A model generated the notes under the pieces. That model saw only the letters and a list, made by a program, of their open reading frames with translations, had not been told where the DNA came from and did not search any database. From Pseudomonas chlororaphis (GTDB taxonomy: Bacteria > Pseudomonadota > Gammaproteobacteria > Pseudomonadales > Pseudomonadaceae): DNA of 64,000 bases. Both the position numbers and the translations under genes were made by a program. This document shows positions 5,889-34,321 of this stretch, piece by piece. The stretch's first letter is position 1; each line of letters starts with the position of its first letter. The DNA is taken from assembly GCF_001921865.1 (NCBI RefSeq), contig NZ_MSCT01000002.1, forward strand, positions 124,001 to 188,000, read 5' to 3'.

Positions 5889-7217
5889 ATGCCCCAAGCT
5901 CCTCGCCAACTCAAGCTCGGCGCCTTCCTGATGGCGACCGGTCATCACGTTGCCGCCTGGCGGCATCCGTACGTACCAGCGGATGCTGGACTAGACTTTT
6001 TTGCGTACCGGCAATTGGCCCGGATCGCTGAAGACGCGAAGTTCGACGCGCTGTTCCTGGCCGACAGCGTGGCTGCCGCCATAGGCCCCGGGGCCAGCAG
6101 GATGGCGCGTTCCGACCAGTTTGAACCCTTGACTTTATTGGCCGCCCTCAGCGTCGTCACCGCGCATATTGGGCTGATTGCCACTAGTACTACGAGCTAT
6201 AACGTACCGTACCACGTAGCACGTAAGTACGCTTCGCTGGATCACCTGTCGGGCGGTCGAGCGGGTTGGAATCTGGTGACTTCCGATAATGCGGCCGAAG
6301 CGCAGAATTTCGGTCTCGAACAGCATCTTGGCCACGCCGAGCGCTACCGCCGTGCCCGCGAGTTCCATGAGGTGGTCACCGGGCTCTGGGACAGTTGGCA
6401 GGACGACGCCTTCGTCCGCGACAAGGCCAGCGGCCTGTACTACGACCCGGACAAGCTGCACGTGCTGGATCACCAGGGCGAACACTTCCGGGTCAAGGGG
6501 CCGCTGAATGTGGCGCGCCCGCCCCAGGGCCACCCGGTGGTCGTCCAGGCCGGCTCCTCCGAAGCCGGGCGCGAACTGGCGGCGCAGACCGCCGACGTGG
6601 TGTTCACCGCCCAGGCTTCGCTGGCCGGCGCCCAGGCGTTTTACGCCGACCTCAAGGGCCGCCTTGCGCGCTACGGGCGCGAGGCCGATTCGTTGAAAGT
6701 CATGCCCGGGGTGTTCGTGGTGGTGGGGCAGAGCGAAAGCGAAGCCCGGGAAAAATATGAATCGTTTCAGCAGTGGGTCGAACCCGAGGTTGGCGTGGCC
6801 TTGCTTGGGCGTATGCTGGGCAACTTCGACTTGTCGCCGTACCCGCTGGACGGCCCGCTACCCGAATTGCCGTTGACCGAAAGCGGTCAGCAAAGCCGGC
6901 AGAAACTGCTGACCGAACTGGCCGGCCAGGACAACCTGAGCCTGGCCGAGCTGGGGCGGAAAATCGCCGGCGGCCGCGGGCATTACAGCCTGATCGGTAC
7001 GCCGACGCAGATCGCCGACGAGTTGCAGAGCTGGTTCGAGGAGGGCGCGGCGGACGGTTTCAACGTGCTGGTCCCGCACCTGCCGGGCGGGTTGCAGGAC
7101 TTTGCCGATGCCGTGGTTCCGGAACTGCAGCGCCGCGGGTTGTTCAGAACCGAATACGAAGGCAAGACGTTGCGCGAGAACCTGGGGCTGGCGCGACCGA
7201 AGAACCGTTTTGCATAG
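5889..7217 (+). CDS. NtaA/DmoA-family FMN-dependent monooxygenase
   Basis: A 442-residue protein of the bacterial-luciferase-like fold, NtaA/SnaA/DszA/DmoA subgroup. Visible features are the start PRQLKLGAFLMATGHHVAAWRHP, the LADS strand near residue 57, TTSYNVPYHVARKYASLDHLSGGRAGWNLVTS (about 99-130, flavin pocket), and SSEAGRELAAQTADVVFTAQ (about 220). These enzymes use reduced flavin from a partner reductase to oxidise sulfonates, thioethers or aminopolycarboxylates. Nearby tauABCD suggests organosulfur use, which is inference. Codons between about 5960 and 6260 are clearly atypical for this genome while the protein stays intact. Confidence 0.88.
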   Translation: MPQAPRQLKLGAFLMATGHHVAAWRHPYVPADAGLDFFAYRQLARIAEDAKFDALFLADSVAAAIGPGASRMARSDQFEPLTLLAALSVVTAHIGLIATSTTSYNVPYHVARKYASLDHLSGGRAGWNLVTSDNAAEAQNFGLEQHLGHAERYRRAREFHEVVTGLWDSWQDDAFVRDKASGLYYDPDKLHVLDHQGEHFRVKGPLNVARPPQGHPVVVQAGSSEAGRELAAQTADVVFTAQASLAGAQAFYADLKGRLARYGREADSLKVMPGVFVVVGQSESEAREKYESFQQWVEPEVGVALLGRMLGNFDLSPYPLDGPLPELPLTESGQQSRQKLLTELAGQDNLSLAELGRKIAGGRGHYSLIGTPTQIADELQSWFEEGAADGFNVLVPHLPGGLQDFADAVVPELQRRGLFRTEYEGKTLRENLGLARPKNRFA

Positions 7218-32383: not shown

Positions 32384-32423
32384 GATAATGATACTTGATC
32401 GCGTTTGTCCGGGCTGCTAGCAT
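32384..32423 (+). promoter_or_regulatory. sigma70 promoter with overlapping Fur-like site
   Basis: TTGATC (32395-32400), a 17-bp spacer and TAGCAT (32418-32423) form a sound sigma70 promoter 45 bp upstream of the small peptide gene. GATAATGATACTTGATCGC (32384-32402) overlaps the -35; its first ten bases match the Fur consensus exactly and the rest matches weakly, about 13 of 19 overall. Iron control is therefore possible but unproven. Confidence 0.5.
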
Positions 32424-32467
32424 CCGCTCGCTTTGATTTTTCAAGCGACCTAAAAGGGAATATTTAG

Positions 32468-32674
32468 ATGAAAAAAGTTACTGCAGTTGGCTTGATGCTT
32501 TTTGCTGCCCAGAGCTTTGCAATGGAAACAGGATCTTCCGCTGTCAACTCTCACTCCAATCTCGGCTTGAAGTCCGTGGCCGAGAAAAAGATCGAATCGG
32601 TGCCGCAAGGCTGGTGCTCTAATATCCCGCTCAGCTATCAGGATGCACGGGCGATGGGATTGAAGTGTAACTAA
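32468..32674 (+). CDS. Small secreted peptide ending in Asn; candidate microcin C-like precursor
   Basis: A 68-residue peptide. Residues 1-18 (MKKVTAVGLMLFAAQSFA) form a Sec-type signal with an AxSFA cleavage site. The mature part is about 50 residues with two cysteines (GWC and LKC) and ends in GLKCN, a C-terminal Asn. AAGGGA lies 9 bases upstream of the ATG. It is the first gene of a low-GC cassette with a ThiF/MccB-like enzyme and a HIT hydrolase. Microcin C precursors always end in Asn, which MccB adenylates; here the export signal is unexpected. It could instead be an unrelated small periplasmic protein. Confidence 0.6.
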   Translation: MKKVTAVGLMLFAAQSFAMETGSSAVNSHSNLGLKSVAEKKIESVPQGWCSNIPLSYQDARAMGLKCN

Positions 32675-32687
32675 CTTATCAGGAGAG

Positions 32688-32712
32688 TGCCCTTTGCCGA
32701 CGGCAAGGGGCA
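32688..32712 (+). promoter_or_regulatory. Stem-loop between peptide gene and MccB-like gene
   Basis: TGCCCTTTGCC, loop GAC, GGCAAGGGGCA: an 11-bp stem (one G-U pair) just after the peptide stop and 14 bp before the next ATG. There is no T-run behind it. In the E. coli microcin C operon a hairpin between mccA and mccB causes partial termination and raises precursor mRNA over enzyme mRNA; this one may do the same or stabilise the upstream message. It also includes the AAGGGG that lies closest to a ribosome binding site for the next gene. Confidence 0.7.
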
Positions 32713-32725
32713 TTGGATGTGAAGC

Positions 32726-33703
32726 ATGGAAGAGTTGTTGTCTCAGGGACGAGAGAAGATAGTCGATGGCATTGCCTATAGCGACGATCAGCCATTGGCC
32801 ATCTTGGTCCCCTCGGTTATTTTCGGAACAGACCGGAGTGGGGCCAATTACGTTTCTGGTCCCGCGTGCGTCATAAAGATTGAAGCCCTTACACATGAAT
32901 CCTTATGGTCCGCTCTGGTGCAGAGCGGTTCGTTGATCTTTGGCCAGGCGGAGGAAATCCGCCAAGTAAAAGAACGGCTTCAGGCGGGCAGAACCAGTCG
33001 GACATCGTCCTATCTGCTGGGCCGTATCAAGAACTGCCATGACTTTCTTTCTGCCGCCGAGCGCCTCGAGGCGCTAAAAGTGCTGATTGTCGGTTGTGGC
33101 GGAATCGGTTCGATGACGGCATTGAACCTGGCCGGCGCAGGCGTTCGGCATATCACGTTGATCGATGGCGACCGGATCGAGAAAAGCAACCTGAACCGTC
33201 AGTTCTTCTGGGAGGATGCCGATGTCGGGAAGCTCAAGGCGGATCAGCTAAAGCAAGTCATTGGCAACAGGTTTGCCGATGTTGACTGCATTATCGCTAA
33301 CGAATTTCTTTCCGAGGACGAAATAACAGAACGTTCTCGCGACCACGACGTGACCATCATTACCGCCGACGAGCCTCTCGGGCTCGGCCAATCGGCGATG
33401 AACGGCGCGTTGCATACGGCCGATAGATTGGTCATCAGCAGCGGCTATTTTCACCAGTACTTGTCCATTGAAGCTGGCAATGCTTCCACCTCGTACAACA
33501 GCGCGACGGAAGACATTCAGTGGCGACGCAGCCCTGGTTTCATCGGCCCAAGTTTCGGGCCGTCGAATACTGAACTGGCCGGACTCATTGCCTCGTTTAC
33601 CGTCAATTATGTTGTCGATAAAGGCCATGGGCTGAATTGGCAAGAAGGTTTCAAGGACGTCTGGGATTCAAGGGTATTTCCAAGAAAGTCATTACGGGAG
33701 TGA
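32726..33703 (+). CDS. ThiF/MccB-like E1 adenylating enzyme
   Basis: A 325-residue protein. Residues about 115-320 are an E1-like adenylation domain: LIVGCGGIGSMTALNLAGAG (nucleotide loop), LIDGDRIEKSNLNRQFF (Asp and Arg for ATP), and DVTIITADEP (Mg-binding Asp). The 110-residue N-terminal extension could be a peptide-clamp domain as in MccB. The CxxC pairs of zinc-binding MoeB/ThiF proteins are absent, and no ThiS or MoaD gene is nearby. Size, architecture and neighbours fit MccB, which adenylates the terminal Asn of a ribosomal peptide. Low GC relative to neighbours suggests transfer. Confidence 0.75.
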   Translation: MEELLSQGREKIVDGIAYSDDQPLAILVPSVIFGTDRSGANYVSGPACVIKIEALTHESLWSALVQSGSLIFGQAEEIRQVKERLQAGRTSRTSSYLLGRIKNCHDFLSAAERLEALKVLIVGCGGIGSMTALNLAGAGVRHITLIDGDRIEKSNLNRQFFWEDADVGKLKADQLKQVIGNRFADVDCIIANEFLSEDEITERSRDHDVTIITADEPLGLGQSAMNGALHTADRLVISSGYFHQYLSIEAGNASTSYNSATEDIQWRRSPGFIGPSFGPSNTELAGLIASFTVNYVVDKGHGLNWQEGFKDVWDSRVFPRKSLRE

Positions 33704-33709
33704 TGTCCG

Positions 33710-34165
33710 ATGTCGTGCATTTTTTGCGATATTGTCAGCGGGGAAGCTCCCTGTCATAAGATTTGGGAAGATGAAAAACACATTGCCATACTTTCGATCT
33801 ATCCCAATACGGAAGGCTTTAGTGTGGTCTTGCCGAAAAAGCATTATTCCAGTTATGCCTTCGAGCTTGATGATGTAGTGCTCAGCGAATTGGTTATTGC
33901 TTGCAAGAAAGTAGCGCAGTTGATAGATCGGGCATTTGATGATGTGGGCAGAACCGGAATGATGCTTGAGGGGTTTGGCGTCAATCATGTTCATGCCAAG
34001 TTGTTCCCGATGCATGGTACCGGCGGGCAGAAAGAGTGGCGCCAGGTCAAGTCCAATGTCGATAAGTATTTCCAGACTTACGAAGGCTATATCTCTTCAC
34101 ATGACCATGTTCGCGAGAGCGACGAAAAGTTGCGGGAAATAGCCAGGCTTATAAGCGGTAGTTAG
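33710..34165 (+). CDS. Histidine-triad (HIT) family hydrolase
   Basis: A 151-residue HIT protein. CIFCDIVSGEAPCHKIWED is the N-terminal signature; the active-site strand is FGVNHVHAKLFPMHG, giving HxHxK in place of the usual HxHxH. The middle His, the nucleophile in the family, is present. HIT enzymes cleave nucleotide phosphoramidates; HIT hydrolases beside microcin C-like clusters are known to give self-resistance by splitting the peptide-nucleotide bond. It starts 6 bp after the MccB-like stop, so the two form an operon. Immunity is the inferred role. Confidence 0.8.
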   Translation: MSCIFCDIVSGEAPCHKIWEDEKHIAILSIYPNTEGFSVVLPKKHYSSYAFELDDVVLSELVIACKKVAQLIDRAFDDVGRTGMMLEGFGVNHVHAKLFPMHGTGGQKEWRQVKSNVDKYFQTYEGYISSHDHVRESDEKLREIARLISGS

Positions 34166-34254
34166 ATCGGTAGCGTACTTCGGGGTCAGTGTCGGGGTGA
34201 ACGCCAGGGTGGGTGTTTTGCCGGGCACTGGATAAGATGACCGCCGCTACAGGA

Positions 34255-34297
34255 GCGGACGCCAGCGTCCGCGCAGGCTTTCCCGCATGGCGCGGGA
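34255..34297 (+). promoter_or_regulatory. Paired hairpins in the leader of the thioesterase gene
   Basis: GCGGACGCCAGCGTCCGC (8-bp perfect stem) is followed by TTCCCGCATGGCGCGGGAA (7-bp stem), 25 bases before the ATG at 34322. Neither is followed by T residues. They could be a decayed palindromic repeat or a leader structure; function unknown. Confidence 0.4.
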
Positions 34298-34321
34298 AGG
34301 CGTATCGCCGCCGGGGGCCCC

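Follow-up and report, generated by a model that had tools for sequence, protein, structure and literature searches.

The window, by which we mean the whole stretch of 64,000 nucleotides of Pseudomonas chlororaphis DNA that was analyzed, has three consecutive open reading frames on the forward strand. They encode a 68-residue peptide, a 325-residue E1-like protein and, 6 bp further on, a 151-residue HIT protein. The GC content of the three genes (49, 53, and 46 %, in this order) contrasts with the 63 % of the window. The cassette is flanked by genes encoding RecQ (DEAD/Helicase_C/RecQ_Zn) and a 4HBT thioesterase. Its features are the following.

32384..32402, + strand: Fur-box-like site matching 13/19 consensus positions (p about 0.02 relative to shuffled sequences); the peptide gene starts 84 bp downstream
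32468..32674, + strand: MccA-like precursor peptide, 68 aa; open reading frame whose last codon is AAC (Asn)
32468..32521, + strand: predicted Sec signal peptide, residues 1-18 (MKKVTAVGLMLFAAQSFA); basic N-terminal end, hydrophobic core, AxA-type site after residue 18; heuristic only
32603..32671, + strand: predicted core, residues 46-68, arranged as Cys50, 16 aa, Cys67, Asn68; segment conserved with locus L013
32686..32714, + strand: stem-loop between the peptide and E1 genes (MFE -25.0, z -3.9)
32726..33703, + strand: MccB-like E1/ThiF-fold adenylyltransferase, 325 aa (PF00899 ThiF, 2e-28)
32726..33019, + strand: N-terminal E1 domain (residues 1-98), the counterpart of the peptide-clamp/RRE region of MccB; pLDDT mostly 86-95
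33710..34165, + strand: MccH-type HIT phosphoramidase, 151 aa, predicted self-immunity (PF01230, 2e-7)
33968..34000, + strand: MccH signature E87-x5-H93-x-H95-x-K97

Genomic setting and distribution

One relative (G017, L082) has no cassette, and there the thioesterase gene begins no more than about 45 bp after recQ. Since these genes adjoin at this empty site, we regard the cassette as an insertion between ordinary genes. No mobile-element ends were seen at its edges, only 7-base direct and 8-base inverted matches, and scans for sigma-70 promoters and intrinsic terminators gave nothing exceeding shuffled sequences. A GC-rich inverted repeat, possibly REP-like, is found between the HIT and thioesterase genes (34228-34310).

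The same layout was identified at 14 further loci (15 in total) in Pseudomonas, Variovorax, Xylophilus, one Variovorax-family genome, and Methylophaga. The E1 search was positive in 10 of 399 Pseudomonas genomes, and a second draw of Pseudomonas returned the same genomes. The extra loci came from P. viridiflava, Variovorax, Xylophilus, and Methylophaga, then from one more Variovorax-family genome. At E 1e-40, we found no relatives of the E1 in about 765 class and phylum genomes besides the window's own genome. A short open reading frame precedes the E1 gene at all 15 loci. When the frames within roughly 5-7 kb of each cassette were compared, the only common ones were the E1 (15/15) and the HIT (13/15), and no exporter common to the 15 loci was found. 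Further extensive sharing of neighbors was restricted to two loci at the same site. Because the layout recurs at 14 more loci whose precursors mostly have little in common except the signal and the C terminus, the cassette is not a product of chance.

An earlier, sequence-only reading had claimed a low-GC three-gene unit, made of a 68-residue peptide ending in Asn, a 325-residue E1 and a HIT gene 6 bp on, without a ThiS/MoaD partner and without the MccC MFS exporter and accessory genes. All of this held: every element is present, the neighbors are RecQ and the thioesterase, no MFS or ABC exporter adjoins the cassette, and MccD, MccE-N, and MccF are absent. The neighborhood search for peptide-ThiF-HIT triplets that it had proposed found them to recur, the HIT being present in 13 of the 15 loci.

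The phage and plasmid collections gave no match covering 80 % of the E1, and the viral contigs gave no close relative. On this basis, phage or plasmid cargo was ruled out. The patchy distribution, the low GC, and the empty site in the relative fit a bacteriocin-like accessory gene.

Precursor peptides

The 68-residue peptide had no match in Pfam. An Asn is the last residue of all 15 precursors, encoded by AAC in some and AAT in others, and 14 of them have exactly two cysteines and the ending C-x(8-16)-C-x(0-1)-N. Control open reading frames of 45-110 aa from the same DNA end in Asn in only 2.1 % of the cases; a slightly wider pattern, C-x7-17-C-x0-1-N, was matched by 2 of 1055 of them, both in apparently spurious frames. 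The precursor of Xylophilus ampelinus (L016, 4644-4930) has an in-frame TAG and no cysteines, and reads on to a C-terminal Asn. We consider that it has probably decayed, because of the TAG and the missing cysteines; the E1 and HIT genes beside it are intact.

The N termini resemble Sec signals. A hydrophobic core and an AxA-type site were found in 15/15 precursors and a basic start in 13/15, the exceptions being L024 and L026, which have no basic residue near the start. These calls rely on simple heuristics and not on a trained predictor, and the p-value of the signal hydrophobicity is weak for some precursors (0.30 for L019). The codons of the window and of L013 reveal how differently the parts of the peptide evolve. 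Among the 18 signal codons, 12 are identical, 5 synonymous, and 1 non-synonymous; among the 23 core codons, 9 are the same, 9 synonymous, and 5 non-synonymous. The middle is not conserved, with 22 of 27 codons non-synonymous. Hence, from sequence alone, we infer that the precursor probably has three parts: an export signal, a free linker, and a conserved loop ending in Asn.

Intergenic and regulatory features

Of the 14 loci with a measured gap between the peptide and E1 genes, 13 have 26-78 bp and L021 has 235 bp. Nearly all loci have a hairpin in this gap, albeit a weak one at L019, and the sequences of these hairpins are unrelated. The E. coli mcc locus has one as well, and a terminator was described there between the peptide gene and mccB (PMC6495379). 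At L021 the long gap (6290-6526, oriented) gives an inverted fold of great length (MFE -116.6, z -8.7) and might represent the insertion of a small element. Better Fur-like sites than that of the window occur at L014 (17/19) and L021 (14/19). Since most other loci lack one, such a site can be no more than a local trait, and it is from these sites alone that we infer possible iron control in some carriers.

The E1-like adenylyltransferase

Several comparisons place MccB closest to the E1. The family profile searched against the PDB ranked MccB first (118 bits over residues 109-312), ahead of Ube1 (90), PaaA (77), and ThiF/MoeB (77), and hhalign of the family against E. coli MccB gave a probability of 99.5 %. 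The AlphaFold model has a mean pLDDT of 78 and a pTM of 0.78, with a poor C-terminal end. Foldseek with this model returned MccB at the top, matched along its full length (6e-16); MccB chains filled 24 of the 26 top ranks and PaaA the other two. The VIA alignment to MccB starts at residue 23 and covers 275 residues, including the N-terminal domain (Z 22.4), whereas the alignment to ThiF/MoeB begins only at about residue 80. Because the VIA Z-scores are tied with those of ThiF/MoeB, it is the length of the alignment, and not Z, that carries the preference for MccB. The residues matching R157, Q158, K170, and D214 of MccB are invariant in the family.

The four MFS-linked proteins EcMccB, HpMccB, LpMccB, and SeMccB have two CxxC pairs near the C terminus. 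The window E1 has no CxxC pair, and none of the 15 family members has two pairs (L024 has one isolated CxxC). In the tree, the family forms a 100/100 clade on a long branch, and MoeB/ThiF form a separate 100/100 clade (the row MoeB_own is a fragment). Grouping the family with the four MFS-linked MccBs alone is disfavored (p-AU 0.013; long branches in play). The tree leaves the placement of the family among the RiPP E1s unresolved, again with long branches in play. A sulfur-carrier role of the MoeB/ThiF kind was ruled out by the tree, by the absence of CxxC pairs, and by the lack of a ThiS/MoaD-type partner beside the E1. By its fold, its site, and its context, the E1 probably acts like MccB, yet stands outside the canonical MccB group; its activity is an inference.

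We also came across other ThiF-like genes. Two plasmids, of Lactobacillus gasseri (L086) and Streptococcus salivarius (L092), share a ThiF-like gene accompanied by ABC transporter genes; the proteins lack CxxC pairs and form a separate E1 branch (100/99). On a Macrococcus armenti plasmid (L093, 2312-5193), a ThiF-like gene is accompanied by genes of the arginase and isochorismatase families, which together may be a RiPP cluster of an unusual kind.

The HIT protein and its replacements

The signature ExxxxxHxHxK is present in 13/13 cassette HIT proteins. It was defined, as ExxxxxHxHxK(xx), for the MccH clade in a study where the Lys and central His of Hyalangium minutum MccH were required to cleave aspartamide-adenylate and for resistance, and where MccH homologues conferred resistance to McC1120 (PMC7157772). 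The position of HinT His39 is a Phe in 9 of the 13 proteins, including that of the window, and an Ala or Val in the other 4; the F44H mutant of MccH is still active (PMC7157772). A cassette HIT is 61 % identical to a Salmonella HIT. A Salmonella MccH homologue was found to be active (PMC7157772), but we have not checked that it is the same protein.

Two loci have no HIT in the immunity slot. At L019 the slot is occupied by an S51 peptidase (3e-42), and at L079 (6933-8507) a GNAT acetyltransferase domain (1e-15) is fused to the E1, an arrangement that puts synthesis and immunity in one protein. Both replacements belong to published classes of microcin C self-immunity: the S51 peptidase MccG (PMC9239234) and the GNAT-type C-terminal domain of MccE (PMC7157772). 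Three unrelated folds thus share one slot, and all belong to classes published as removing processed microcin C, which is the strongest evidence for the nature of the product.

A standalone HIT gene with the MccH signature was found beside vapBC on a 6.6-kb plasmid of Acinetobacter lwoffii (L094, 2992-3468), with similar genes in Pseudoalteromonas (L095) and Salmonella (L096). The plasmid gene could conceivably be a mobile microcin C resistance gene.

Comparison with known systems

The microcin C7 system of E. coli (mccABCDEF; plasmid MccC7-H22, L027) has a short precursor ending in Asn, then a hairpin, then an MccB with an N-terminal peptide clamp, and L079 offers a parallel to its GNAT-type immunity, the C-terminal domain of MccE. 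It differs in its precursor, which has 7 aa against the 68 aa, signal, and two cysteines in the window. The cassette lacks the MccC MFS exporter, the MccD/MccE-N aminopropylation genes, and MccF, and the E1 departs from E. coli MccB in its lack of the two CxxC pairs and its separate branch. An MFS gene adjoins MccB in the canonical clusters of E. coli, H. pylori, L. plantarum, and Salmonella, but the 15 cassette loci share no exporter.

The mcc locus of H. minutum (PMC7157772) shares long precursors (36 and 46 aa), an MccH with the same ExxxxxHxHxK and the absence of aminopropylation genes, and adenylation by its MccB was demonstrated in vitro (PMC7157772). However, it encodes an ABC/HlyD/C39-type exporter and two precursor-MccB pairs, and a Sec signal is not described for its precursors. 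The Nocardia vaccinii mcc with MccG (PMC9239234) has S51 peptidase self-immunity, as at L019, but also mccC, cytidylate-type modifications, and a 21-aa precursor. PaaA (pantocin A) and other RiPP ThiF-like enzymes share an E1 fold with an N-terminal recognition domain, but have other precursors and chemistry, and score lower against the E1 in profile and fold.

For Pseudomonas, the 2020 study on MccH (PMC7157772) mentions "putative mcc-like clusters" that fall in the MccH clade. Their HIT is of the same clade, but neither precursor nor signal nor gene layout is given in the main text. These clusters probably include cassettes of the present kind. In the literature searched, which had few subscription journals and no supplements, we found no account of microcin C precursors that carry a Sec signal or a cysteine loop. 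The 14 intact precursors have 61-78 aa, whereas the size given for MccA peptides is 7-8 aa, with 17-56 aa for a group of long ones (PMC6495379). For these two reasons we consider a microcin C-like cassette with a Sec-like signal and two cysteines to be a new form of a known type.

Proposed product and mechanism

The sequence evidence established here comprises the gene layout, the invariant Asn, the signal-like N termini, the two cysteines, the MccB-like fold, the MccH signature, the immunity swap, the hairpin, and the empty site. We think it likely that the cassette makes a microcin C-like peptide-nucleotide that is exported by Sec and from which the producer is protected by the HIT protein; adenylation, Sec export, the disulfide, release, target, and activity are all inferred. 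The 68-aa precursor would be synthesized in the cytoplasm, where the MccB-like E1 would use ATP on the C-terminal Asn to yield an isoaspartamide-AMP (a phosphoramidate). Modification should precede export, because adenylation needs ATP and a free C terminus, and the E1 and HIT proteins lack a signal peptide. The Sec signal would then carry the modified peptide to the periplasm, with a signal peptidase cut after about residue 18. Post-translational Sec export, as this ordering requires, is plausible for so short a protein. In the periplasm, the two cysteines may form a disulfide loop beside the nucleotide, and the product would leave the cell by a route that the cassette does not encode. In the target cell, reduction and proteolysis would release aspartamide-adenylate, an inhibitor of aspartyl-tRNA synthetase. 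In the producer, the HIT protein (or the S51 peptidase or GNAT domain of two relatives) would destroy the warhead.

The sequence-only reading had set two ways in which it could be refuted, and neither was borne out. The E1 family and MoeB/ThiF fall in separate 100/100 clades, MccB leads the PDB profile and fold searches, and the C-terminal Asn is kept in 15/15 cassettes. The structure and profile comparison with E. coli MccB that it proposed gave MccB as the best match, peptide-clamp region included. It was right that the E1 lacks zinc CxxC pairs, but this failed as a pointer to MccB, since two such pairs occur in MFS-linked MccBs, that of E. coli included. Its idea of a microcin C-like peptide-nucleotide system is supported, although the chemistry of the product, its export, and its antibiotic activity are inferences. 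The HIT as self-resistance is supported by the MccH-type signature and by the alternative immunity enzymes at two loci. Its different export route gains support from the Sec-like signals in all precursors and the lack of a shared exporter, export itself being inferred.

Some observations speak against the main reading. No exporter is encoded, though mcc clusters usually include mccC. The E1 family has a long branch to itself and is without the two zinc CxxC pairs of MFS-linked MccBs, and the precursors exceed the size of those of known long-precursor systems. The signal peptides rest on simple heuristics, and no cassette gene explains exit through the outer membrane or uptake.

Alternative explanations

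A first alternative is that the E1 uses the adenylated C terminus for a different bond, for instance by joining Cys50 to the C-terminal carboxylate in a thiolactone, so that the product is a macrocycle and not a nucleotide conjugate. ThiF-like RiPP enzymes can form thiolactones (GrcB; PMC12250964), a Cys sits at a fairly constant position 8-16 residues ahead of the last Cys, and the family is distinct from E. coli-type MccB. However, this leaves unexplained the invariant final Asn and the MccH signature with its S51 and GNAT replacements, which are of kinds that detoxify isoAsp-AMP, and the best alignment of the E1 is to MccB. We regard it as unlikely.

The chemistry could also be microcin C-like with no involvement of Sec, the hydrophobic N terminus being a mere leader for recognition by the E1 or by a chromosomal pump. 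The signal calls are heuristic, the N terminus of L019 scores weakly, L024 and L026 lack the basic residue, and the N-terminal domain of MccB-type enzymes is a RiPP recognition element. Yet AxA-type sites and hydrophobic cores are found in 15/15 precursors that are otherwise largely dissimilar, the conserved cysteine pairs suit periplasmic oxidation, and no pump is common to the loci. This explanation also seems improbable.

That the modified peptide is a signal or a self-acting product whose level is controlled by the HIT protein is very improbable: the cassettes are compact and without genes for uptake or export, Fur-like sites precede a few of them, and there are no activity data, antibiotic activity being inferred, but a swap among three unrelated microcin C immunity classes is expected for a toxic warhead, and the patchy spread (10/399 Pseudomonas genomes), the low GC, and the empty site fit a bacteriocin-like accessory gene.

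Significance

We retain a Sec-exported, microcin C-like peptide-nucleotide as the preferred reading. A bolder version, in whose favor the balance tips only slightly, is that the cassettes represent a distinct, patchy subclass of peptide-nucleotide antibiotics. The warhead would be placed in the cytoplasm on the C terminus of a Sec pre-peptide, which the general secretory pathway would take across the inner membrane without a dedicated exporter; a disulfide loop would lie beside the warhead, and immunity would be interchangeable among HIT, S51, and GNAT proteins. With three interchangeable immunity classes, function can be tested sharply, and because the system has only three genes it is easy to rebuild in a laboratory strain. 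If the bolder version is true, Sec accepts a peptide that bears a nucleotide at its C terminus, as in no characterized microcin C system that we found, and a new branch of MccB enzymes would act on two-cysteine peptides. Pseudomonas would then make antibiotics against a target that differs from that of most drugs in use.
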